Assembly (NCBI RefSeq): GCF_034424215.1
Contig: NZ_CP139960.1
Span: 1,364,001-1,428,000, forward strand
DNA: 64,000 nucleotides
Origin: Niabella yanshanensis
GTDB taxonomy: Bacteria; Bacteroidota; Bacteroidia; Chitinophagales; Chitinophagaceae
Reading direction: 5' to 3'
Within the stretch, counting starts at the first letter, position 1, and each line of letters opens with the position of its first letter. Shown in pieces: positions 19,262 to 36,356 of the stretch. Both the position numbers and the translations under genes were made by a program. The notes under the pieces are model-generated. The model saw only the letters and a program-made list of their open reading frames with translations, was not told where the DNA came from and made no database searches.

Positions 19262-20623
19262 TTAGCTCCTGAAAGAAACTATGAAGCTATTTTCTTCGTC
19301 CTGGTTACTATAGCTTACCTCGGCATCATTGGCGGCGAGTATTTTTTGCGTCAACACCAGGCCCAGCCCATAACCCGTTTGCCCCCTGCTGTTCTCCCCT
19401 CTGAAAAAATGTTGAAATAACATCTTTTGCTCCTCTTCTGTAATAGTTGCGCCTTTATTACTGATGTATATCTTCAAAACGCCCGTTTGTGCTGCATCCA
19501 TTTCAATACTACCCTTATTTTCAGAACTGTAAATAATGCAGTTGGACAGCAGGTTTTGAAAAGCCTGTTTCACTAAGAGTGGGTTAACGGATACTTCCAT
19601 TCGTTTTTCATCAAACTCCTGTGGGGTATACTTGATATGGAAATTAAAATCAGGATAAATAATATTGAGCTCATCAATAATATCATAGATCATTTCGTCG
19701 ATACGGGTAGTATACTTTTTCAGCTCCTGGCCGGCCTCTACTTTCGAGATCTCGAGTAATACAGTGATGATATTGCCCAGCGACTGCGCTTTTACTACCT
19801 GGCGATCCAGCTCCTGCTTTATTCCCGTGCGGTCCGCAGCCCTACTGATCCGTTCCAATTCGGACACTAAAACGGCAAGCGGTGTTTTTAACTGGTGTGA
19901 AATATGATCGATGGTACGCTTTTGAAAAAGAAACGCTTCATTAGTTCGCCTGACTAATTCATTAAACCGCTCAGTAAGATGCTCGATTTCATAAGTATTG
20001 GTCTTTATAGAGAGCGGCTCATTATTGCTGCTGAAATCGTACCGCTGTATATTATCAGCCAATAAAGCTATGGGTTTGGAGATTTTACCGGATATATACA
20101 ATGACACCAGGACAACCAGGAGGCTGAAGGCTATGAACAGTGCAATCAGCACGTTTCTCAGGTAAGAGAGCTTGTCATAGCCAAATGCATCATAGGCTTT
20201 AATAATCGCATAATAAACCTGGTGATTGCTTTCGATATAAGCGCCCAGAACATCATAGTGCTTTTCATCTGCAAAAACAGACTGCTGAGCAGGTGACAGA
20301 TCCAAAAGAACAGACCGGGCGGAATAAATCTCCAGGCTGTCAAGACTTGAAAAAATCAGATCCTTTTCCTTATCATATACCAGCAATTTTTCATCGAAAA
20401 AATCATTAATATCCTGTTCATCCAAAATAGATGATATCTCTGCACTTTGCTCCCGGTATTTCTGGATCAACTGAACCGTATAGCGGATCTTATTTTCCTG
20501 CTGCTTTCTAAAGGACTGTTCGCGGTAGGAATAGAATAATATATAGATCAGCAGGAAGGTAATAGCAGTAATACCTATGATGGTAGAGCAAACATAAATC
20601 AGTATCCTTTTTTTGATTCTCAT
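19262..20623 (-). CDS. Sensor histidine kinase (HAMP type)
   Basis: A 453-residue membrane kinase. Two transmembrane segments (about residues 8-30 and 155-178) enclose a periplasmic sensor of about 125 residues. A HAMP linker (ISGKISKPIALLADNI) leads to the HisKA motif HISHQLKTPLAVL near residue 240 and an HATPase domain with NLLSNCIIYS and GYGLGLVLTQKI. Its start overlaps the end of the response regulator gene by 4 bases. The pair is divergent from an RND heavy-metal efflux operon, so it probably senses metal in the periplasm; this is inferred from position. Confidence 0.93.
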   Translation of the reverse strand: MRIKKRILIYVCSTIIGITAITFLLIYILFYSYREQSFRKQQENKIRYTVQLIQKYREQSAEISSILDEQDINDFFDEKLLVYDKEKDLIFSSLDSLEIYSARSVLLDLSPAQQSVFADEKHYDVLGAYIESNHQVYYAIIKAYDAFGYDKLSYLRNVLIALFIAFSLLVVLVSLYISGKISKPIALLADNIQRYDFSSNNEPLSIKTNTYEIEHLTERFNELVRRTNEAFLFQKRTIDHISHQLKTPLAVLVSELERISRAADRTGIKQELDRQVVKAQSLGNIITVLLEISKVEAGQELKKYTTRIDEMIYDIIDELNIIYPDFNFHIKYTPQEFDEKRMEVSVNPLLVKQAFQNLLSNCIIYSSENKGSIEMDAAQTGVLKIYISNKGATITEEEQKMLFQHFFRGENSRGQTGYGLGLVLTQKILAANDAEVSYSNQDEENSFIVSFRS

Positions 20624-21300
20624 GACATATCCCAGTAATAACCGTACCCCACTTTTGTTTTGATAGACTTTTGTCCGAAAGGCTTGTCGATCTTATTCCT
20701 TAAGAAATTAATATACACTTCGATTGTATTGGTATTGTAATCTACATTGCCGCCCCATATTTCTTTCATCAACTCTGCCTTGGACACTACCCTGTCTTTA
20801 TTGTCGATCAGCATGTACAGTATCTGGTACTCCCTCGGCGTCAGCATTATCTCCTGCTGCCCGCGATAAACTTTCTTCTGATCATCATTAATCACCACAT
20901 CACCAGCTGCCAGATTAGACGAGACTTCTTCCTGCAATTGCCTGGACCTTTTAACCAGGTTTTGTATCCTTAGATATAACTCCCGCATATAAAAGGGCTT
21001 GGTGAGGTAATCATCGGCGCCTGCGTCAAACCCCGTTACCTTGTCCTCTAATTCAGCAAAAGCAGTCAGCATAATCACTGGTGTGCTTTTATTAAATTGC
21101 CGGTAAGCCTTACATAGCTCAAAGCCATTTTTACCCGGGAGATTGACGTCCATAATCACGCAATCGAATGCCTCTTTTCGCAGTAAGCGCTCAGCAAGCA
21201 TTCCATCATATACAACTTTTACATGGGCCTGCTCTGCTCTCAGCGCTTCCGTTATATTTTGCGCCAAAGTATGGTCATCTTCAATCAATAACAGGTTCAT
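20620..21300 (-). CDS. OmpR-family response regulator
   Basis: A 226-residue two-domain regulator. The receiver has the acidic pair IEDD near residue 8, the phospho-acceptor in VIMDVNLPG near residue 51 and the lysine in LTKPFYMREL near residue 103. The C-terminal winged helix ends in INFLRNKIDKPFG and VGYGYYWDMS. It overlaps the kinase gene by 4 bases and its 5' end lies 110 bases from the efflux operon start, so it probably controls that operon. An 11-base palindrome GGCTTTAAGCC at 21367-21377 in the shared spacer is a possible binding site. Confidence 0.94.
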   Translation of the reverse strand: MNLLLIEDDHTLAQNITEALRAEQAHVKVVYDGMLAERLLRKEAFDCVIMDVNLPGKNGFELCKAYRQFNKSTPVIMLTAFAELEDKVTGFDAGADDYLTKPFYMRELYLRIQNLVKRSRQLQEEVSSNLAAGDVVINDDQKKVYRGQQEIMLTPREYQILYMLIDNKDRVVSKAELMKEIWGGNVDYNTNTIEVYINFLRNKIDKPFGQKSIKTKVGYGYYWDMS

Positions 21301-21410
21301 ACTGTAAAGGTATTACATCTCCGGCGAAGCTTCTCATGAGCACCCGGTTTAAGGACAATTTTATCGGCTTTAAGCCTTTCTTAAGGTGTTTCATCCCAGC
21401 TTTGCCCATC

Positions 21411-22703
21411 ATGAAACGGACTCTTTTATTGAGCACAATGCTTCTTGCCTGCTGGTGGGACGCCGCAGCACAGGACACGCTGCATTTATCGCGCAGCCAA
21501 TGCGAGGCAATTTTCCTAAAGGAAAATTTATCATTGCTGGCTGAACAACTTAATATCCCGATGGCAGAAGCCGAAGTAAAACAGGCTTCTTTATGGCCTA
21601 ATCCCCAATTCACCCTCGACGAAATCAATCTCTGGGCAACGCGTCATCAAACAGGCGGACAGGAAGTATCTCCGCCGATTATAGGCAATTGGGGGCGTAA
21701 CCAACAATATGCCATATCTATAGAACAGTTGCTCTACACCGCGGGCAAACGAAAAAAGTTAATGGCATTGCAAAGTGTTGGCGTTGAAAAGGCACAACAA
21801 TTTTTTAATGAACTATTACGAAATCTAAAACTGGAATTGCGCCGCCAGATAACGGAACTGCAATATCTGCAGTTGTCGGAGCATGCTTTTCAAACACAGC
21901 TACAATCGGTAAACGACCTGCTGGGCGCCTACGAACGTCAACTCGAAAAAGGAAATATAGCGGCAACCGAGGTTACCCGATTACAAAGCAAACAATTTGA
22001 GCTCCAAAAATCACTACACGAGCTGAAACAGCAAAATAATGAAACGCAAAAAGAACTGAAACAACTGTTGCATTTGCCACCTCAGACCTTTCTGCAATTA
22101 AGCAGCGATCAGTTTGAGCGGGCCATTACTAACAATAGCATTCCCACTTACCAAACCCTGGTAACTGAAGCATCAACCCACCGCCCTGATTATAAGTTAG
22201 CATTACTGGAAAAAAGGTATTCAGAAAAAGCTTATTCCTACGAAAAAGCTTTACGCACACCAGATGTAACTATTAAAGGCAGTTACGACCGGAACGGAAG
22301 TACGATGCTGAATTTTGTTGGCTTCGGGGCATCAATAGACCTCCCCTTCTTTAATAAAAATCAGGGTAATATCCAAAAGGCGAAGCTAGGCATTCAGCAG
22401 GCAAAAACTTTGTCTCAGCAGTCCCTGCACCAGATGGAGACAGAAGTAGCTGCCAGCTATAAGTCCCTACTGAATGCCTATACTTTTCATATAAATATTG
22501 ACGCTGCTTATCTCCAAAAACTGGATCAATCTCTCGAAGCCTATACCCGTAACTTTTTATCTCGAAATATTAATATGTTAGAGTACCTGGATTTCCTGGA
22601 ATCATATCAACAGAACAAACTCTCCATTCTTGGCGCCTCCCGTGATTTGAATAATGCAGTGGAAGAGGTCAACTATGTATCGGGCACTGAGCTGATGCCC
22701 TGA
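21411..22703 (+). CDS. TolC-family outer-membrane protein of a metal efflux system
   Basis: From the ATG at 21411 the product has 430 residues and a signal peptide ending at WWDAAAQD. It is rich in long coiled helices (residues about 130-220 and 320-390), the shape of a TolC/CusC outer-membrane channel, and carries the pattern ASIDLPFFNKNQGNIQKAK typical of the metal-efflux branch. It is the first gene of a CzcCBA/CusCBA-like set. A longer frame open from 21168 would extend into the response regulator's start region and would lose the signal peptide, so I prefer the internal ATG. Confidence 0.9.
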   Translation: MKRTLLLSTMLLACWWDAAAQDTLHLSRSQCEAIFLKENLSLLAEQLNIPMAEAEVKQASLWPNPQFTLDEINLWATRHQTGGQEVSPPIIGNWGRNQQYAISIEQLLYTAGKRKKLMALQSVGVEKAQQFFNELLRNLKLELRRQITELQYLQLSEHAFQTQLQSVNDLLGAYERQLEKGNIAATEVTRLQSKQFELQKSLHELKQQNNETQKELKQLLHLPPQTFLQLSSDQFERAITNNSIPTYQTLVTEASTHRPDYKLALLEKRYSEKAYSYEKALRTPDVTIKGSYDRNGSTMLNFVGFGASIDLPFFNKNQGNIQKAKLGIQQAKTLSQQSLHQMETEVAASYKSLLNAYTFHINIDAAYLQKLDQSLEAYTRNFLSRNINMLEYLDFLESYQQNKLSILGASRDLNNAVEEVNYVSGTELMP

Positions 22704-22745
22704 TTTAAAACTATATGCTCCTAATTGATCCCATCAATATACAAT

Positions 22746-23825
22746 ATGAAAAGAATATTTACGATCGGAATAACCATCGCTCTGCTTGCAGGTTGCAGAG
22801 AAAAAAAAGCAGTGCCTGTTGAACAACAATTCTGCCTTGACAAAGAGCTTAAGTCGAAAATCAGTATTGAAGAAGCCAAAGCTGAACCTGTTGCCACCGG
22901 TGTTCATTTAATGGGTAGTGTGGAAGCCAATGCCGACAAGCAGGTCACCTATTCCAGTTTAACCAATGGTGTAGTCAACAATGTATTTTTTTCTTTGGGC
23001 GATAAAGTGCAGAAAGGGCAGGTATTGGCTGAAGTAAAAAGTGTTGAGTTAAACAGCTTACAATCAGAATCAGGCAATATCCTTCAACAGATCAGGATCG
23101 CAGAAAGAAAACTGGAAACTTTAAAAGACCTGTATGCCGACGGCATGTCATCAGGCAGGGAATTACAGGAAGCACAAAGCGAGTTAGAGATACTTAAATC
23201 AGAGCAAAGAAGAACCGGCGCCAATATGAGCCTTTATAATGCCAGTACGTCAAAAGGTGTTTTCCAGGTCAAAGCTCCTTCAAGCGGTGTTATTACTTCG
23301 AAGAATATTGCGCCTGGTACCCAACTCAATTCTGAAAGTGAATCGCTTTTCACCGTTTCTAACCTGGATGAAGTGTGGGTAATGGCTAACATCTATACCA
23401 GCAACATAGCAGAGATAAAGGAAGGCATGCCGGTAGAGATCACCACACTTTCTTACCCGGGCCAAACCTTCCGCGGAAAAGTATCGGTACTCTCACAGGT
23501 AATGGATAATGACTCGAAAGTATTGCAGGCGCGTATCGTAATGCCCAATAAGGATCTATTGCTAAAACCAGGGATGATGGTCGACATCACGGCATTAAAA
23601 AACGAAACAACCATGCAGGTATGCCTGCCTGAAGCATCCCTGGTGTTTGACAACAACGAATACTATGTGCTGATTTATAAGGAGGATTGCAGCATAGAAG
23701 TGCGTAAAATAAAGACAGGTAGCCGGAATCATAATAAGATCTACATACCGGAAGGCATCGTGCCCGGAGAAAAAATCATCACCCGAAATCACCTGCTTAT
23801 CTACCAGGCGCTTCAATCATTTTAA
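22746..23825 (+). CDS. RND efflux periplasmic adaptor (membrane fusion protein)
   Basis: A 359-residue lipoprotein (signal ending ALLAGCREK) of the CusB/CzcB type. It joins the inner-membrane RND pump to the TolC channel. A biotinyl-lipoyl segment (YSSLTNGVVNNVFFSLGDKV), a coiled-coil hairpin (residues about 105-165), a second half-motif (VKAPSSGVITSKNIAPG) and the beta-barrel domain are visible. No long histidine- or methionine-rich metal-binding N-terminus is present. The ATG at 22746 is preferred to an upstream TTG because it starts the signal peptide. It sits 42 bases after the TolC gene and 73 before the pump gene. Confidence 0.9.
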   Translation: MKRIFTIGITIALLAGCREKKAVPVEQQFCLDKELKSKISIEEAKAEPVATGVHLMGSVEANADKQVTYSSLTNGVVNNVFFSLGDKVQKGQVLAEVKSVELNSLQSESGNILQQIRIAERKLETLKDLYADGMSSGRELQEAQSELEILKSEQRRTGANMSLYNASTSKGVFQVKAPSSGVITSKNIAPGTQLNSESESLFTVSNLDEVWVMANIYTSNIAEIKEGMPVEITTLSYPGQTFRGKVSVLSQVMDNDSKVLQARIVMPNKDLLLKPGMMVDITALKNETTMQVCLPEASLVFDNNEYYVLIYKEDCSIEVRKIKTGSRNHNKIYIPEGIVPGEKIITRNHLLIYQALQSF

Positions 23826-23898
23826 TACTGTATGTATATGCAGTTAACCCGGCAACACAATTGCACCAGACCAGGTGCGAGATTAAACCCGTATCGAC

Positions 23899-26800
23899 AT
23901 GACAAAGATCGTTCAGCAAATAGTTTCGTTCTCTTTAAAAAATCACATTATTGTACTGTTTCTTACCGCCTTACTGGTGGTATCCGGAATAGTAGCTTAC
24001 CTGCACACTCCCATTGAAGCATATCCCGATGTTACCAACACCAGGGCCCGTATCATTACACAATGGCCCGGGCGGAGCGCAGAAGAAATAGAGAAATTTG
24101 TCACCCTTCCTTTAATGAAGGAGTTAAATACGATTCCCAAAAAATCGGATGTTCGTTCCATCTCTTTATTCGGGCTATCGGTAGTAACAGTTCTTTTCGA
24201 CGATGATGTAGATGACTTTTATGCGCAGCAATATGCGGCAAACCGGTTACAATCTGTTTCTCTGCCGGATGGCGCAGATGCCGGTATTGAACCGCCAGCC
24301 GGAGCAACCGGTGAGATCTTCCGGTATGTTTTAAAAAGTAAAAGAGACATTAAGGAACTCACGGCTATACACGACTGGGTAGTTGAAAGGGAATTGGTTG
24401 CAGTGCCCGGTGTATCTAATATCATCAGTTTTGGAGGGGAAGAAAAGATCTATGAGATCAAGATCAACCCCACGGAGTTGGCCAATTACGACCTATCTCC
24501 CCTGGATGTATATGATGCCGTAGCGAAGAGTAATATCAATGTAGGTGGTGATGTGATTGAAAGAGGCAGCCAGGCCTATGTAGTAAGAGGTGTAGGTTTA
24601 TTAGAACAAACAGAAGATATCGAAAATATTCTGATCAAAGTAAAAGGCAACACACCTATACTCGTGAAACATGTTGCCCGGGTAGAAGTAGCAGCTAAGC
24701 CACGGTTGGGTAAAGTAGGATTACAAGATGATACAGATCTGGTTCAGGGCATTGTGATGATGTTGCGGGGTGAAAATCCGGGAGATGTAATACCCAGGCT
24801 AAAGGATAAAATTGCCGAACTGAATAACAGTACTTTACCTGCCGATGTAACGATAGAGCCTTTTATTGACCGTACCGAACTGGTAAGTGCAACGGTGGAT
24901 ACCGTAAGTAAAAATATTATAGAAGGCATTCTCTTTGTATCGGTCATTGTTTTCATTTTTCTTTTCAACTGGCGTACCACACTAATAGTAGCATCGGTCA
25001 TCCCGCTCTCCTTCCTGTTCGCATTACTTATGTTGCGGATACAGGGATTACCGGCAAATCTCATATCGTTGGGGGCCATCGACTTTGGCCTATTGCTGGA
25101 AGGCACTCTCGTCATTGTTGAATCTGTATTTGTAACCATGGAGCTCAGGGCGCACCAGCTGGGCATGAAACGGTTTAATAAAAGCAGTAAGCTGGGGTTG
25201 ATCCGTAAAGGAGCAGGCAGCGTGGGTGGTTATATTGTATTTGCACAACTGATATTGATTGTTGCGTTAATTCCTATTTTCTCCTTCCAGAAAGTAGAAG
25301 GAAAAATGTTCCGGCCGCTTGCATTTACTTTGGGATATGCACTGTTAGGCTCACTCCTGCTCAGCATTACCTATGTACCGGCACTTTGCAGGTTAATGCT
25401 CACTAAGAACATAAAGGAGAAGGAAAATGTCATTTCAAAATTCTTTAAGAACAACCTGTTTCGCCTGTTTTTATGGAGTAATCGTCGTCGCAGGATTGTT
25501 GTTACGGGTTTTATAGTAATACTGGCCGGGTGTGCGGTAAGATTTGCATTCTACGGAACAGAATTTATTCCTAAGCTTAACGAGGGGGCGTTGTATGTAA
25601 GGGCCACACTCCCGAATAGCGTCAACCTTGAAGAATCAACGCGGTTAGCAGAGGAAATGAAAAAGAAGATCCGCGGCTTCGACGAAGTACAATTTGTGCT
25701 CAACCAGGTAGGAAGACCTAATGATGGAACCGACCCTACAGGTTTTTTCAATATAGAATTTCATATACAACTATACCCGGAAAAGGAATGGACACGACCG
25801 GTTAAAAAGGATGAGCTGGTGGAAGAAATGCGAAAGTCTTTGGATATCTATCCGGGTATCGTATTAGGCTTTAGTCAACCGATACAGGATAATGTGGAAG
25901 AATACGTGGCAGGTGTAAAAAGCTCGCTGGTAGTAAAGATCTATGGCAATAACCTTTTTGAATTGGAGAAATATGCTGACCAGGTAGCCAACAGTATACG
26001 TACGGTAAAAGGTATTGAAGACCTTAATGTATATCGCAATATTGGTCTGCCGGAATTAAGAATTCAATTGCACGATCATAAAATGTCCCGTTACGGCATT
26101 GATATCGCCGATGCCCAGGCTGTAATAGAAATGGCGATAGGCGGCCGGGCCGCTACCAAATTCTACGAAGAAGAACGCATGTTTGATGTACGGTTAAGGT
26201 TTGACAAACCCTACAGGGATAACGAGAAGAAGATCGGCGAAATGATGATCCCTGCCGAGGATGGTAAGAAAATACCTTTAAAAGAAATTGCTACCATCAG
26301 CTATATTACAGGACCTGCCTTTATTTATAGGGAAGGCAGCAGCCGTTATATAGCGGTAGGCTTCAGTATACAGGGCAGAGACCTGGGAAGTACGATTGCT
26401 GAAGCCAAAGCCAAAGTAGCTAAAGAAGTGAAAATACCGGTGAAAAATAAAATGACCTGGGCCGGTGAGTTTGAAAGTAAAGAGCGCGCTTCCCAACAAC
26501 TATCTGTTATTGTGCCGGCAGTATTGTTACTGGTATTATTTTTATTGTACTTTAATTTCGGTACCATTAAGGATACCCTTATTGCAGCCAGTACCATTCC
26601 ATTTGCATTCATAGGTGGCTTTCTTTCCTTGTGGCTTACCCAAACAGTATTTGGTATTTCTGCAGGTATTGGCTTTATTATACTTTTTGGTGTAAATACT
26701 ATCAACAGTATCATATTGATCGCCGTGATGAAAGAAAACATGCGAAAAATGAATTTAAAAGAAGCCATATCCAATGGCGTACATAGTCGTATCCGTCCTA

Positions 26801-27000
26801 TTGTAATGATCGCGTTAATGGGATCAATCGGTCTCCTCCCGGCAGCCTTATCAACCGGTATGGGATCTGAGGTTCAAAAGCCGCTGGCGATTATGATAGT
26901 GGGAGGATTACTGATTTGCATGATACTGTCGCTTACCGTGCTGCCCCAGATATTCTACTTCAGCTACCGGCGCAAAGCAGCCAGTCAGCAAACTTCATAA
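23899..27000 (+). CDS. Heavy-metal efflux RND pump (CzcA/CusA family)
   Basis: A 1033-residue inner-membrane RND transporter with 12 membrane segments and two large periplasmic loops. The N-terminus KNHIIVLFLTALLVVSG and PIEAYPDVTNTRARI are classic for the heavy-metal (HME) branch. The fourth membrane helix reads AIDFGLLLEGTLVIVE: it keeps the DFG of pumps for divalent ions, whereas Cu/Ag pumps have a different motif and methionine relays, but the second acidic position is Glu in place of the usual Asp. So divalent metal export (Zn, Co, Cd or Ni) is the better guess. It is the last gene of the operon and is controlled, by position, by the two-component system to its left. Confidence 0.92.
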   Translation: MTKIVQQIVSFSLKNHIIVLFLTALLVVSGIVAYLHTPIEAYPDVTNTRARIITQWPGRSAEEIEKFVTLPLMKELNTIPKKSDVRSISLFGLSVVTVLFDDDVDDFYAQQYAANRLQSVSLPDGADAGIEPPAGATGEIFRYVLKSKRDIKELTAIHDWVVERELVAVPGVSNIISFGGEEKIYEIKINPTELANYDLSPLDVYDAVAKSNINVGGDVIERGSQAYVVRGVGLLEQTEDIENILIKVKGNTPILVKHVARVEVAAKPRLGKVGLQDDTDLVQGIVMMLRGENPGDVIPRLKDKIAELNNSTLPADVTIEPFIDRTELVSATVDTVSKNIIEGILFVSVIVFIFLFNWRTTLIVASVIPLSFLFALLMLRIQGLPANLISLGAIDFGLLLEGTLVIVESVFVTMELRAHQLGMKRFNKSSKLGLIRKGAGSVGGYIVFAQLILIVALIPIFSFQKVEGKMFRPLAFTLGYALLGSLLLSITYVPALCRLMLTKNIKEKENVISKFFKNNLFRLFLWSNRRRRIVVTGFIVILAGCAVRFAFYGTEFIPKLNEGALYVRATLPNSVNLEESTRLAEEMKKKIRGFDEVQFVLNQVGRPNDGTDPTGFFNIEFHIQLYPEKEWTRPVKKDELVEEMRKSLDIYPGIVLGFSQPIQDNVEEYVAGVKSSLVVKIYGNNLFELEKYADQVANSIRTVKGIEDLNVYRNIGLPELRIQLHDHKMSRYGIDIADAQAVIEMAIGGRAATKFYEEERMFDVRLRFDKPYRDNEKKIGEMMIPAEDGKKIPLKEIATISYITGPAFIYREGSSRYIAVGFSIQGRDLGSTIAEAKAKVAKEVKIPVKNKMTWAGEFESKERASQQLSVIVPAVLLLVLFLLYFNFGTIKDTLIAASTIPFAFIGGFLSLWLTQTVFGISAGIGFIILFGVNTINSIILIAVMKENMRKMNLKEAISNGVHSRIRPIVMIALMGSIGLLPAALSTGMGSEVQKPLAIMIVGGLLICMILSLTVLPQIFYFSYRRKAASQQTS

Positions 27001-32475: not shown

Positions 32476-33330
32476 ATGAGTATTGATATATTTAAGTTTT
32501 TACAGCAAAATCAATCCGTCATCCTGGAGAAATGGATGACTAATCAGCTTGCAGATACCGGTTTAAGAGATGACCTGATCAGCAACGAGGAACTAAGAAA
32601 TGAGTCGGAGGAACTGGTTCAGGAATTCATTAAAGGTTTATCCAAAGATAATATTGACAATCCGGAATCTCCTGACTTCGACCCTGTATTGGAGATACTG
32701 GGCGGCATCTCCATTTCCAGGGCGCAGCAGGGCTTCAGTCCCAAAGAAACAGGGCTGTTCGTAATCAGCCTGAAAGAAGCACTTATCGATCTGATATCAG
32801 AACAAAACTGGGAAGCGGCTACTGTTATGCAATCCATACGTTCACTCAATAAACTTTTTGACAGTTTTTCTATTTATACTTTTGAAACCTTTATAAAGGG
32901 AAGAGAAGAAGTTATTTTAAGACAAACGGATGAGATCACAGAAATTTCCACACCGGTCATCCGTATCTGGGATAATATCCTTGCCTTACCGATTATAGGA
33001 ACACTTGATAGTGCCCGAACGCAGGTGGTAATGGAAAGCCTTTTGACGGAAATCGTAGCATCAGGAAGTAGTATTGCGATCCTCGATATTTCGGGAGTTC
33101 CAACCGTTGATTCACTGGTAGCCCAGCACCTGTTGAAAACCGTTAGTGCCACCAGGCTGATGGGCGCTGAATGTATTATTAGTGGTATACGTCCTGAAAT
33201 AGCTCAAACGATTGTCCATTTGGGTATCGATCTTTCGGGCATCATCACCAAATCATCACTGGCGAGTGCCCTGTCTTACGCATTCAGAACACTACGCCTG
33301 GAGGTTAAAACGATTTTGAATAACAAATAA
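32476..33330 (+). CDS. RsbR-like stressosome scaffold protein
   Basis: A 284-residue protein with an N-terminal helical RsbRD-type sensor domain (ILEKWMTNQLADTGLRDD, to about residue 160) and a C-terminal STAS domain (to 284). The STAS motifs DISGVPTVDSLVAQHLL (serine at residue 213) and GIRPEIAQTIVHLGIDL (threonine 245) closely follow those of the Bacillus RsbR family, whose Ser/Thr residues in these regions are phosphorylated by RsbT. It is the first gene of a five-gene operon. The ATG at 32476 is preferred over a TTG two codons earlier. The N-terminus has no known ligand-binding motif, so the signal is unknown. Confidence 0.9.
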   Translation: MSIDIFKFLQQNQSVILEKWMTNQLADTGLRDDLISNEELRNESEELVQEFIKGLSKDNIDNPESPDFDPVLEILGGISISRAQQGFSPKETGLFVISLKEALIDLISEQNWEAATVMQSIRSLNKLFDSFSIYTFETFIKGREEVILRQTDEITEISTPVIRIWDNILALPIIGTLDSARTQVVMESLLTEIVASGSSIAILDISGVPTVDSLVAQHLLKTVSATRLMGAECIISGIRPEIAQTIVHLGIDLSGIITKSSLASALSYAFRTLRLEVKTILNNK

Positions 33331-33340
33331 GAGGAGTTTT

Positions 33341-33757
33341 ATGGATAGAATACCCATTTTACGGATGGGCAGGTATTTACTGGTAACCATCCAGGTAGAT
33401 CTTTATGACCGTTTGGCGCTTGATCTCGAAAGCGACCTCGTAAAAGCGGTTAGTGCTAATAACTCAACTGGTATTCTTATAGATATATCGGCAGTGAGCA
33501 TTGTCGATTCATTTATGGGTCGCATCATCGGAAATATAGGCACGATGGCATCACTGCTGGGAGCGGAAACAGTTGTGGTAGGCATGCAGCCCGCCGTGGC
33601 TATTACACTGGTAGAATTAGGGTTGGACCTGAAAGGCGTTTCAACCGCATTGAATGTAGAAAAAGGTATGGCATTGCTTGATTCAAAAACAGGCGGTGCA
33701 TCGGCGTCGCATCAAAATACAAATACTGATGACGACGAGATTGATCGTTCTGAATAA
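33341..33757 (+). CDS. rsbS: RsbS-like STAS antagonist
   Basis: A 138-residue single STAS-domain protein. It resembles Bacillus RsbS closely: SIVDSFMGRIIGNIG carries the conserved phosphorylatable serine (S57) and VVVGMQPAVAITLVELGLDL is near identical to the family form. RsbS holds RsbT in the stressosome until phosphorylated. A GAGGAG Shine-Dalgarno lies 6 bases before the ATG, unusually strong for this phylum. The gene's end overlaps rsbT by 29 bases. Confidence 0.92.
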   Translation: MDRIPILRMGRYLLVTIQVDLYDRLALDLESDLVKAVSANNSTGILIDISAVSIVDSFMGRIIGNIGTMASLLGAETVVVGMQPAVAITLVELGLDLKGVSTALNVEKGMALLDSKTGGASASHQNTNTDDDEIDRSE

Positions 33758-34151
33758 AGACCAGGTTCCGGTGTTGAAAGAGCAGGATGTAGTGGTCTTC
33801 AGGAACAGGTTGAAGGAAGCAGCAACTAAAATAAAAATGGGGCTGGTAAACCAAACCAAGCTGATCACTGCCGCCAGCGAATTAGTCCGTAATATGCTTC
33901 GATATGCCGGAGGGGGAAAAGTGCTGCTGGAAATCGTATCCCGCGGCCGTGATAATGGTGTGCGACTCACTTTCGCGGATGAAGGGCCGGGCATCTCGGA
34001 CATTGGCCTGGCAATGAAGGACGGATACTCTACTCAAAAAAGCCTTGGCCTGGGATTGCCCGGTGCAAAACGCCTGGTTAATGAATTTGACATACAATCT
34101 GAAGTAGGTAAAGGTACTTCAGTCACCATATTAAAATGGGCAAATGGTTGA
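33729..34151 (+). CDS. rsbT: RsbT-like serine/threonine kinase
   Basis: A 140-residue GHKL ATPase/kinase starting MTTRLIVLNKDQVPVLKE. The N-box region ELVRNMLRYAGGGKVLLE, the G1 motif DEGPGI and the G2 motif GLGLPGAKRLVNEF are all present. RsbT phosphorylates RsbR and RsbS on stress and then leaves to activate a downstream partner. I chose the ATG at 33729 because it starts the conserved domain; it lies inside rsbS, giving a 29-base overlap. An earlier in-frame ATG at 33678 is possible. The start of the next gene overlaps its end by 8 bases. Confidence 0.92.
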   Translation: MTTRLIVLNKDQVPVLKEQDVVVFRNRLKEAATKIKMGLVNQTKLITAASELVRNMLRYAGGGKVLLEIVSRGRDNGVRLTFADEGPGISDIGLAMKDGYSTQKSLGLGLPGAKRLVNEFDIQSEVGKGTSVTILKWANG

Positions 34152-35163
34152 TGCCACTCATAAATTCTTTAATGCTTCGGACAGAAGCTATTTTGCTATT
34201 ATAAAAAAAGAAGTGCATGCCCTTGCATTGCAACACCAGTTCACCGAAAAGCGGATTGCCGAAACAGATCTTATTATTGCAGAGCTTACATCCAATTTGG
34301 GTAAATATGCTACAGGAGGATATATCTTGCTTGGCTGGAATGAATGGCTGCAGGGTGGATATATAGAGATTATTTCGGTTGATAACGGACCCGGTATCAG
34401 CGACACGGGCCGTGTTATGTTCGACGGATTTTCAACTTCGAATACCCTCGGACATGGACTGGGAAGTATTAAACGGCTCTCCGACTTCTTCGACATATAT
34501 TCTCTGAAAGGTTGGGGAACCATCGTAGTAAGTCGTATTTTTAAAACTGCTCAGCCTATAACAGGCCTGAAAACATTCCCGGAAATTCAACCACTTGTAC
34601 TGGCCAAACAGGGTGAAACTACATCGGGTGATGGTTTTGTACTCCGTAAAGGAGACCGGTCTATTAAATTGATGCTGGCCGACGGCCTGGGTCACGGACC
34701 CGATGCTAATCTGGCTGTTAACGAAGCTGCCAAAGCTTTTCATAATATAGCGTCCAATTCACCGGTTGAGATCATCAGGCATATGCACAGCTCTGTCCGC
34801 AAGACACGCGGGCTGGTTGCTATGATATGCATTGCCGATCTTGTAAAAAAAACGGTGTCCTTTGCCGGTGTGGGAAATATCAGCACCAAGCTGTTCGGCG
34901 TCAACCAAACAGTCAAAAGTATCTTATGCTATAACGGGATTATCGGGCATAATATACCGGGCACGATGAATGACAATATCCTGCCCATAGATTCTTTCCA
35001 GGAGCTGATTTTATGTTCCGACGGAATCCGGTCAAGATGGGATACGGCGAAATTCACCGGCATAAATCGTTGCGACCCGATGATAAAAGCAGTAGCGCTT
35101 CTTAAAGACTTCAACCGGCTCACAGACGATAGTTCTGTAGTAGCCATAAAATTTAAAAGATGA
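34144..35163 (+). CDS. Fusion of an RsbT-like ATPase and a PP2C-type (RsbX/SpoIIE-like) phosphatase
   Basis: A 339-residue protein of two domains. Residues 1-140 are a second GHKL ATPase with ELTSNLGKYATGGYILLG (N-box) and SVDNGPGISD plus TLGHGLGSIKRLSD (G1 and G2). Residues about 165-339 are a PP2C/SpoIIE-type phosphatase with MLADGLGHGPDANLAV and SFAGVGNIST as metal-binding motifs and LILCSDGIRSRW near the end. In Bacillus RsbX is a separate protein that resets the stressosome by removing phosphates from RsbR and RsbS. Here the resetting phosphatase appears joined to a kinase-like ATPase. It overlaps rsbT by 8 bases and the next gene by 4. Confidence 0.9.
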   Translation: MVDATHKFFNASDRSYFAIIKKEVHALALQHQFTEKRIAETDLIIAELTSNLGKYATGGYILLGWNEWLQGGYIEIISVDNGPGISDTGRVMFDGFSTSNTLGHGLGSIKRLSDFFDIYSLKGWGTIVVSRIFKTAQPITGLKTFPEIQPLVLAKQGETTSGDGFVLRKGDRSIKLMLADGLGHGPDANLAVNEAAKAFHNIASNSPVEIIRHMHSSVRKTRGLVAMICIADLVKKTVSFAGVGNISTKLFGVNQTVKSILCYNGIIGHNIPGTMNDNILPIDSFQELILCSDGIRSRWDTAKFTGINRCDPMIKAVALLKDFNRLTDDSSVVAIKFKR

Positions 35164-36356
35164 CAACCCTGGGCAGTACTACATTGGAAAATGAAATGGA
35201 CCTGACATTGGCCTATAAGAAGTCCATATTGGTTGCTGATAAACTTGGGCTTACCGCTGCCACCCAAACTGCGTTCGCTACAGCAGTCTCTGAGGTTTGC
35301 AGAGATGTCATCGATAAAGCTACAGATGGACTGCTAATCATTGGCACTGCGCCAGAGGAAGGCAGGTTTGCACTGGAGGCTATTATCACTTATAACCCCA
35401 CTGATAAAATACCGCATCCTAATCCTGGCTACGAATATGCCAAGAAGCTGGTTCCCGTTTTTAACAAGGGTTTCGAAGATGGGAAGGAGCGTGTTACACT
35501 GAGCCTTACTATGCCGAGGTCGTTGAACCTGAGTGATAAAAAAATTCAGCAACTGCAAACAGATCTTCTTGGGGCTTCCCCCATTAATTCTTACGAGGAA
35601 GTAAAGCTCCGCAACAGTGAGCTACAGCAGGCTAACCTGCAGCACGAATTGGAGCTGGTCAGCATTAAGTATCTGAACGAACAAAAGAAAGAATTTCTTT
35701 CCATAGCCAGTCACGAGATCAATGGGCCGCTTACGGTAGCGCATTCCATGGCACAGATCGCATTGAAGCTGGATCCAAAGACCAACCCCGCATTAACAGG
35801 ATATCTTCAAAGGCTTCATTTACATACTACCAAGCTGGTACGGCTTACCCGGCAATTACTGGATATCTCCCGGATGGAAACAGGCAACTTCAACTATGAG
35901 CGGGAAGTCATAACCGCCCCCCTTTTTTTTGACGAGGTGATCGAAAATCTTAAATTGTTATGTCCTGATCACCATATCGCCCCTTCCCTTTCTTTAGACC
36001 TGGCGCTGTTGAATATTGACAAGATCAAAATTGAACAGGTTTTCAATAATGTAGTGGGGAATGCTGCCAAGTACTCCGATCCGGGCACTACTATCACTAT
36101 TCATGCCAACTGTACCGCAGAGCAATTAGTAGTAACTGTTAGGGATCAGGGTATCGGTATGTCTGAGGACACGCTTTCCAGGGTTTTCAGCAAATTTTAC
36201 AGAGGGAAAAATGAACGAAGCAAATTTAGTGGACTGGGTATGGGATTGTATGTTACCGCCAGGATCATAGAAGATCACAATGGCTCATTGACTGCCAGCA
36301 GTGTGCCCGGAGAGGGGTCTGCATTTACATTCAGGCTTCCGCTACACCAGGCTTAG
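35160..36356 (+). CDS. Histidine kinase with an N-terminal degenerate RsbT-like ATPase domain
   Basis: A 398-residue soluble kinase. The C-terminal part is a standard HisKA plus HATPase: FLSIASHEINGPLTVAHSMA near residue 185 (phospho-acceptor histidine, in an unusual HEINGPL context), NVVGNAAKYSDPG and GLGMGLYVTARIIEDHNGS. The first 130 residues resemble an RsbT-like GHKL fold with an N-box-like stretch (FATAVSEVCRDVID) but no clear G1 or G2 motifs, so it is probably catalytically dead and could serve as a docking domain. No membrane segment is present. It overlaps the preceding phosphatase by 4 bases (ATGA). No response regulator follows within the window. Confidence 0.88.
   Translation: MTTLGSTTLENEMDLTLAYKKSILVADKLGLTAATQTAFATAVSEVCRDVIDKATDGLLIIGTAPEEGRFALEAIITYNPTDKIPHPNPGYEYAKKLVPVFNKGFEDGKERVTLSLTMPRSLNLSDKKIQQLQTDLLGASPINSYEEVKLRNSELQQANLQHELELVSIKYLNEQKKEFLSIASHEINGPLTVAHSMAQIALKLDPKTNPALTGYLQRLHLHTTKLVRLTRQLLDISRMETGNFNYEREVITAPLFFDEVIENLKLLCPDHHIAPSLSLDLALLNIDKIKIEQVFNNVVGNAAKYSDPGTTITIHANCTAEQLVVTVRDQGIGMSEDTLSRVFSKFYRGKNERSKFSGLGMGLYVTARIIEDHNGSLTASSVPGEGSAFTFRLPLHQA

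Follow-up and report, generated by a model that had tools for sequence, protein, structure and literature searches.

The locus described here raises the question of how a stressosome delivers its signal when its operon carries none of the genes that lead to the sigma factor SigB. The window, by which we mean the whole 64,000-nucleotide stretch of Niabella yanshanensis DNA that was analysed, contains a run of five + strand genes at 32476–36356 that encode RsbR (284 amino acids), RsbS (138), RsbT (140), a phosphatase fusion referred to here as X (339) and a histidine kinase (398). We found that the kinase begins with a degenerate copy of RsbT. Judging from sequence comparison, the operon is probably a self-contained stressosome with a two-component kinase as its output, in which RsbT-derived domains would dock enzymes on the scaffold. 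Modules of RsbR, RsbS, RsbT and an RsbX-type phosphatase (RSTX) with a two-component output have already been published; the RsbT-derived domain of the kinase is the part for which we found no report.

A preliminary description of this DNA had proposed a five-gene run that ends in an ATPase–phosphatase fusion and a soluble kinase. All five open reading frames (ORFs) are present and their Pfam domains agree with it. The whole X gene spans 34144–35163 and the whole kinase gene 35160–36356; by domain, the operon is laid out as follows.

32476–33330, + strand: RsbR-like co-antagonist, RsbRD_N sensor and STAS domain (Pfam RsbRD_N 1e-24, STAS 3e-14; PDB RsbR E 1e-31)
33341–33757, + strand: RsbS scaffold protein, STAS domain with acceptor serine S57 (PDB RsbS E 1e-27; Ser in 80/80 loci)
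33729–34151, + strand: RsbT switch kinase, HATPase domain with intact ATP-binding boxes (29-nt overlap with rsbS, 8-nt overlap with X)
34144–34560, + strand: XN, the RsbT-like HATPase domain at the N terminus of X, ATP-binding boxes intact (46% identity to RsbT over 90 amino acids)
34561–35163, + strand: phosphatase domain of X, RsbX-type PP2C of the SpoIIE family (SpoIIE 2e-8; PDB 3zt9 4e-14; RsbX 3w40 2e-7)
35160–35510, + strand: kinase residues 1–117, degenerate RsbT-derived domain (hhalign, AlphaFold2, Foldseek; N, D and first G boxes lost)
35535–35771, + strand: kinase linker, helix 126–138 and then helix 144–204 into the H185 helix (full-length AlphaFold2 model)
35682–36347, + strand: kinase catalytic core, HisKA (H185) and HATPase_c (Pfam HisKA 1e-10, HATPase_c 7e-28)

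As had been noted, the genes overlap or almost touch: the spacing along R-S-T-X-kinase is +10, −29, −8 and −4 nt, with genes 2–5 overlapping. A 281-nt gap lies upstream of rsbR, and the next gene downstream of the kinase is on the opposite strand. A promoter scan found 11 matches where 8.5 were expected. The overlaps suggest translational coupling, and the exact 8-nt overlap of T and X recurs in 55 of 78 tabulated loci. The earlier claim that the proteins are made in a fixed ratio does not follow from overlap, and fixed stoichiometry is unsupported. The RsbT ORF begins at ATG; RsbT residue numbers refer to the frame P0003, whose start is 2 residues past that ATG.

The first three genes carry the core of a stressosome, with Ser/Thr acceptors in its two STAS proteins and a sensor at the N terminus of one of them. 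The closeness of RsbR and RsbS to known stressosome proteins was confirmed by their PDB matches, and the RsbS motif quoted in the preliminary description is present. Candidate phospho-acceptors in RsbR are S179 (Ser in 87/87 sequences), S213 (82 Ser and 5 Thr) and T245 (Thr in 84/87). Counted along the alignment, these correspond to positions 175, 209 and 241 of the solved RsbR chain 9o3o, which has Ala at 175, a position that we take to be a Thr phospho-site in Listeria RsbR. For Listeria innocua RsbR, T209 and phospho-T241 are named (PMC9237128; papers are cited here from excerpts of their text). RsbT, a GHKL kinase, retains its N, D and G boxes (all residues checked are kept in 81/81), and its closest solved relatives by sequence are SpoIIAB chains. 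An RsbX-type PP2C gene follows rsbT directly, as in RSTX modules, and is here fused to an RsbT-like domain. That domain, XN, keeps N53, D82, G84, G86, G105 and G107 in 80–81 of 81 sequences; its 46% identity to RsbT comes from a comparison within its own genome. The PP2C metal aspartates 163, 180, 293, 328 and 329 of X are all kept in 87/87.

The N terminus of the kinase, which had been described as RsbT-like, is RsbT-derived by profile, structure model, Foldseek and trees, but it is degenerate in the window. Residues 1–174 have no Pfam match at E ≤ 1. Compared by hhalign with a 15-sequence RsbT profile, the N-terminal domain matched with E 3e-12 (probability 97.6%); profile-to-profile comparison with XN gave E 4e-4 (probability 37%), and with RsbS no match. 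An AlphaFold model of the domain from 64 sequences has a predicted local distance difference test score (pLDDT) of 94 and a predicted template modelling score of 0.89. Foldseek gave 18 matches in the PDB at E ≤ 1e-3, every one of them from an RsbV/RsbW, SpoIIAB or UsfX entry, the table giving entry names and not always the molecule of the matched chain. A PDB sequence search with the kinase-domain profile had a best E of 0.49. By fold and descent, the domain belongs to the RsbT/RsbW family of GHKL anti-sigma kinases, and the window copy lacks the ATP-binding boxes of that family.

Aligning 81 RsbT, 81 X and 79 kinase domains together shows the pattern of loss. D18, T45, E49 and R52 are common to RsbT (80–81 of 81) and the kinase copies (79/79), and X retains only E49 among them. 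Across the 79 kinase copies, the ATP boxes are kept at N53 in 22, at D82 in 36 (a placement that is unsure because it lies beside an alignment gap), at G84/G86 in 13, at G105 in 10 and at G107 in 58, and the lid region is gapped in 65–66. The window copy has lost N53, D82, G84, G86 and G105, and is therefore a copy of RsbT that should not bind ATP in the usual way. From its position in the N box, E49 is probably the counterpart of Glu45 of Listeria RsbT, for which an alignment with the RsbS acceptor serine has been proposed (PMC9237128). In the lineage of the window, the ATP site of the kinase copy is gone and two conserved helices are retained, one of which bears the residue proposed to face the scaffold. 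RsbU_N (PF08673), the domain of RsbU-type RsbT targets, has no match in the window kinase at E ≤ 1.

The rest of the protein is an orthodox histidine kinase, with the histidine of HisKA and the N, G1 and G2 boxes of HATPase_c; H185, N297, D329, G331, G360 and others are invariant among 42 aligned kinases. In the full-length AlphaFold2 model (mean pLDDT 88, and 70–74 over residues 181–240), a helix at 126–138 follows the N-terminal domain and a continuous helix then runs from 144 to 204 through H185. This modelled continuity fits the coiled-coil linker mechanism that has been argued for RsbU and related kinases (PMC12143880).

To place the operon among its relatives, we scanned contigs with an RsbS alignment, which returned at least 571 relatives, and examined the best 80 of these. 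The preliminary description had staked its reading on the kinase accompanying RsbR-S-T in related genomes, and it does: a kinase follows R-S-T-X in 78 of the 80 loci, and the other two (L062 and L105) are contig ends. In 75 of these, gene calling gave the full set of five in order; in the remaining three, the gene that was missed is present (S in both L052 and L094, and T in L071). Kinases are cut by contig ends in L102 and L128, the kinase of L084 is in two ORFs, and X is split in L077. Among the 78 kinases, 39 have no PAS domain (the short form, including the cut L128), 36 have one, and 3 have a better RsbT score. Across 395 genomes of the phylum, RsbS occurs in 14 and a strong match to the kinase domain in 8, all within those 14. 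These 8 are exactly the RsbS-bearing genomes of the window's own class; the other six have different kinases. Four weaker matches to the kinase profile are RsbT itself or the kinase of L042.

None of the 16 genomes of the same genus that were searched yielded X. A module restricted to the genus or family is ruled out, since it recurs across the class. In trees of RsbR and X, the window copies nest with Mucilaginibacter, Parapedobacter and Olivibacter (Sphingobacteriaceae), modules of the window's own family are mostly of the long type, and, among the 80 named loci, only Chitinophaga matches the electron-transfer-like genes of the window. These features hint at a possible horizontal gain of the module in the window lineage. 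Two loci deserve separate mention. In Sediminibacterium roseum (L054, 9130–15572), a tandem duplication gives R-S-T-R-S-T-X-kinase-REC, possibly two sensor inputs with one output. A metagenome-assembled genome labelled Williamsia (Actinomycetota; L067) has a module that falls among Chitinophagaceae in the tree, and is probably mislabelled or a mixed bin.

Less decayed forms of the kinase copy are found further afield. In L042, from another class of the same phylum, and in the Cytophagales Cesiribacter (L059) and Pontibacter (L125), Pfam still calls the kinase copy HATPase. A search of plasmids with RsbS matched 98 records, of which six were opened and five were annotated: Deinococcus sp., D. 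radiodurans, Sphingomonas aliaeris, Paraburkholderia sp. and Variovorax paradoxus. The D. radiodurans operon was also read in a second record. The module is not peculiar to Bacteroidota, as the X fusion is present in 5/5 of these loci from Deinococcota and Proteobacteria and an RsbT-kinase in 4/5. In those four, the RsbT domain at the start of the kinase is intact, with the N, D and G motifs present; scores against the RsbT profile range from E 1e-35 to 5e-30, with 2.6e-27 for Paraburkholderia. The kinase has a C-terminal REC fusion in D. radiodurans, Sphingomonas and Paraburkholderia, and in both Deinococcus records a REC-kinase comes next. Searching the plasmids with the kinase domain of the window gave no match.

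In trees with midpoint roots, the kinase copies form one group and the X copies another, both in the Bacteroidota set (support of 96/94 and 100/100, respectively) and in a 67-row tree with other phyla (100/98 and 100/100). The lid-deleted kinase forms are a nested set within the latter. These sequence relationships establish common descent and decay of the kinase copy, and provide a natural series from intact RsbT-kinase through partly decayed to lid-deleted forms. A separate Bacteroidota lineage (L043, L044, L046 and L047) has RsbU_N-PAS-kinases followed by a NarL-like regulator (by eye); PF08673 is above the Pfam cut-off in L043, L046 and L047 and just below it in L044. The plasmid searches also returned RsbT-like genes on the haloarchaeal plasmids NZ_CP058531.1 and NZ_CP087725.1 (Halobaculum and Halanaeroarchaeum) and RsbS-like matches on 58 Phaeobacter plasmid records.

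The likely output of the operon is a receiver protein. A REC gene is the first gene past the kinase in 32 of 76 loci, compared with 21 of 666 background positions (positions 3–8 on either side; Fisher P = 1.7e-21), and the first upstream gene in 7/76 (P = 0.018); these P values overstate independence because the loci are mutually related. Of the 32, 19 lie on the same strand after PAS-type kinases and 3 on the same strand after short kinases, and 10 are convergent (9 short, 1 RsbT-like). The window itself has no REC near the operon. As regards the signal flow proposed earlier, from sensor core to kinase to an unlinked response regulator, the relatives point to a response regulator as the output, and an unlinked one is only a candidate. 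The REC of Mucilaginibacter L074, where the operon has a short kinase, has one clear homologue in the window genome, at genome positions 898758–899120, outside the window (55% identity, E 2e-42); the second-best homologue has 35% identity. At E ≤ 1e-33 homologues of this REC are found in 22 of 26 short-kinase Sphingobacteriaceae genomes, a set chosen through organism names among the 39 short loci, and are missed in L052, L057, L072 and L097. Within the family of the window, at E ≤ 1e-30, they occur in 4/5 short-kinase genomes (short as judged by open-frame length), 0/39 other kinase-domain genomes and 12/350 genomes that lack the kinase domain (P = 9e-6; 2.4e-4 at genus level). This single-domain REC is a candidate for the co-occurring orphan response regulator that the preliminary description had proposed to look for, with mixed evidence as to whether it is the receiver of the window operon. 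It is one of two divergent single-domain receivers with no adjoining kinase gene (by eye) at G000:C1:898316-899120 (L143, L162). A divergent pair of such matches recurs in the same-genus genomes G003 and G012, and the second receiver may partner the output candidate.

The operon contains no RsbU_N, RsbV, RsbW or sigma gene, in agreement with the earlier statement that it lacks sigma-B. A search of the genome with RsbT and the STAS family found no RsbV/RsbW-like pair, no RsbW, RsbU_N or SigB model search having been made; nor did it find, at E ≤ 1, a further small ORF resembling RsbT. There are 4 STAS matches in the genome, and the only further stand-alone one has no kinase gene beside it; this protein of 127 amino acids (G000:C1:2129356-2129739) lies between RNase Z-like and ClpC-like genes (names by eye). 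The genome has 36 Sigma70_r2 matches, unsorted by class. A SigB output via another sigma gene, of 251 amino acids, was considered; by eye the gene reads as an ordinary extracytoplasmic function (ECF)-type ORF. Elsewhere in the window, at 19262–27000, a two-component pair lies beside three RND-efflux-like genes (by eye); similar genes occur in Mucilaginibacter L078, and the arrangement looks ordinary.

The mechanism that we infer, from scaffold assembly and phosphorylation to the docking surface and the direction of control, runs as follows. RsbR and RsbS would form a STAS scaffold that RsbT phosphorylates upon stress, and X would strip the phosphates and so reset the scaffold, the cycle by which known stressosomes work. 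That cycle is described in PMC9237108 and PMC9237128. The RsbT-derived domains of RsbT, X and the kinase would be docking tags for one common scaffold; a docking surface common to all three is suggested by the presence of such a domain on each of three enzymes of one operon. Phosphorylation of the scaffold would set how much kinase is held and how much is free, as well as its state, and the change would travel down the continuous helix to the dimerization helix of the kinase, altering phosphotransfer to the receiver protein. A bolder form of this proposal, to which we give somewhat less than even chances, is that the scaffold seats switch kinase, phosphatase and histidine kinase via three RsbT copies. 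The whole would be a kinase array in the cytoplasm, present in at least three phyla and governing a two-component pathway, with the Bacteroidota kinase copy as a pure pseudokinase docking tag.

The most serious rival, although a rather unlikely one, is that the RsbT-derived domain of the kinase pairs with free RsbT as a GHKL–GHKL heterodimer, such that RsbT released from the stressosome turns the kinase on, as RsbT does RsbU. SpoIIAB pairs with itself, and GHKL pairing need not, we presume, use the ATP lid. The D18/T45/E49/R52 set common to RsbT and the kinase copies would fit such pairing but may be merely structural. The rival would agree with the established view that the messenger is RsbT once released (PMC12143880). 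RsbT–RsbT pairing is not reported in the excerpts consulted. We favour scaffold docking, as about twice as likely, because E49 is kept in 79/79 kinase copies despite the loss of ATP binding. Direct phosphorylation of the kinase by RsbT on Ser/Thr has been suggested for D1 of Vibrio vulnificus and for outputs that lack RsbU_N (PMC9237108); here, where the N-terminal domain would then serve only for dimerization, it appears improbable, as it leaves unexplained both the descent of the domain from RsbT and the RsbT signature residues kept in 79/79. By its domains the kinase is complete as a soluble histidine kinase, and it might be an independent sensor kinase co-transcribed by chance. The linkage in 78/80 loci, with the remaining two at contig ends, indicates that its neighbourhood is not chance, and together with genome co-occurrence and the RsbT ancestry of the N-terminal domain makes a mere neighbour extremely improbable.

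Several observations weigh against docking of the kinase on the scaffold and control of a receiver. In SpoIIAB-type complexes the lid forms part of the STAS-binding side; it is deleted from the kinase copy, and STAS docking could therefore be impaired. In Variovorax, R-S-T-X is followed by a kinase with no RsbT-like domain (a REC hybrid comes next), which argues that the domain is dispensable. The H185 helix comes from a moderate-confidence model of the kinase as a monomer. No receiver is the next gene in 44/76 loci. The same-genus genomes G002, G003 and G012 carry the candidate receiver at 73–86% identity, and X was not found in them, which counts against the co-occurrence. These three are evidently outside the 394-genome sample, and their addition would change 12/350 to 15/353; their completeness is 91, 72 and 83%, and the module could therefore be missing from the assembly.

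Compared with known systems, the core is that of the Bacillus and Listeria SigB stressosomes, with RsbR, RsbS and RsbT and their phosphosites, but the output of those systems, RsbU-RsbV-RsbW-SigB, is absent from the window operon. The RSTX-D1-D2 locus of V. vulnificus has RsbR, RsbS, RsbT and an RsbX-type phosphatase in an operon that lacks RsbU, RsbV, RsbW and SigB, with kinase and receiver downstream (PMC9237108, PMC10014275), D1-D2 being a two-component output (PMC10014275). It differs in its single-domain RsbX and globin-sensor RsbR, and the excerpt of PMC9237108 describes no RsbT-derived kinase domain. For globin-type RsbR, RSTX modules are reported in Bacteroidetes and other phyla with eleven downstream architectures, including HisKA/REC phosphorelays; RsbU_N is absent from most of the downstream proteins, which leaves open how the signal exits (PMC9237108). 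Histidine kinases with RsbU_N (PMC12143880, PMC9237108; here L043, L044, L046 and L047) likewise make a kinase the output of a stressosome operon, but have the RsbT-binding RsbU_N (PF08673) in place of an RsbT-derived domain. Our literature searches and the excerpts consulted described no histidine kinase that carries an RsbT-derived domain; Pane-Farre 2005 and 2017 and Makarova 2001 may contain parts of this picture.

A further likeness is to D. radiodurans DR_B0024–DR_B0029 (numbers inferred from gene order), which has the same order of R-S-T, X fusion and RsbT-like kinase. There, the RsbT-like domain of the kinase is intact, the kinase has a C-terminal REC fusion, and a second REC-kinase follows. 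DR_B0026 has been called RsbT (PMC7143949). According to PMC6501615, which cites Hecker and Volker 1998 and Makarova 2001, co-regulation of the kinases DR_B0028/29 with an antisigma-factor operon is presumed; DR_B0028 was higher during recovery from vacuum exposure (PMC6501615, 2019) and DR_B0029 more abundant after space exposure (PMC7597052). The module is real and widespread, and the preliminary description had its outline right. An RsbT-derived domain on the downstream kinase, present in Bacteroidota, Deinococcota and Proteobacteria, would offer a concrete and testable exit route for the signal. The intact RsbT-kinase version is found in D. radiodurans, a laboratory strain in which gene disruptions have been made (PMC8363230). 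Stressosome output that uses neither SigB nor RsbU_N becomes a directly testable question.

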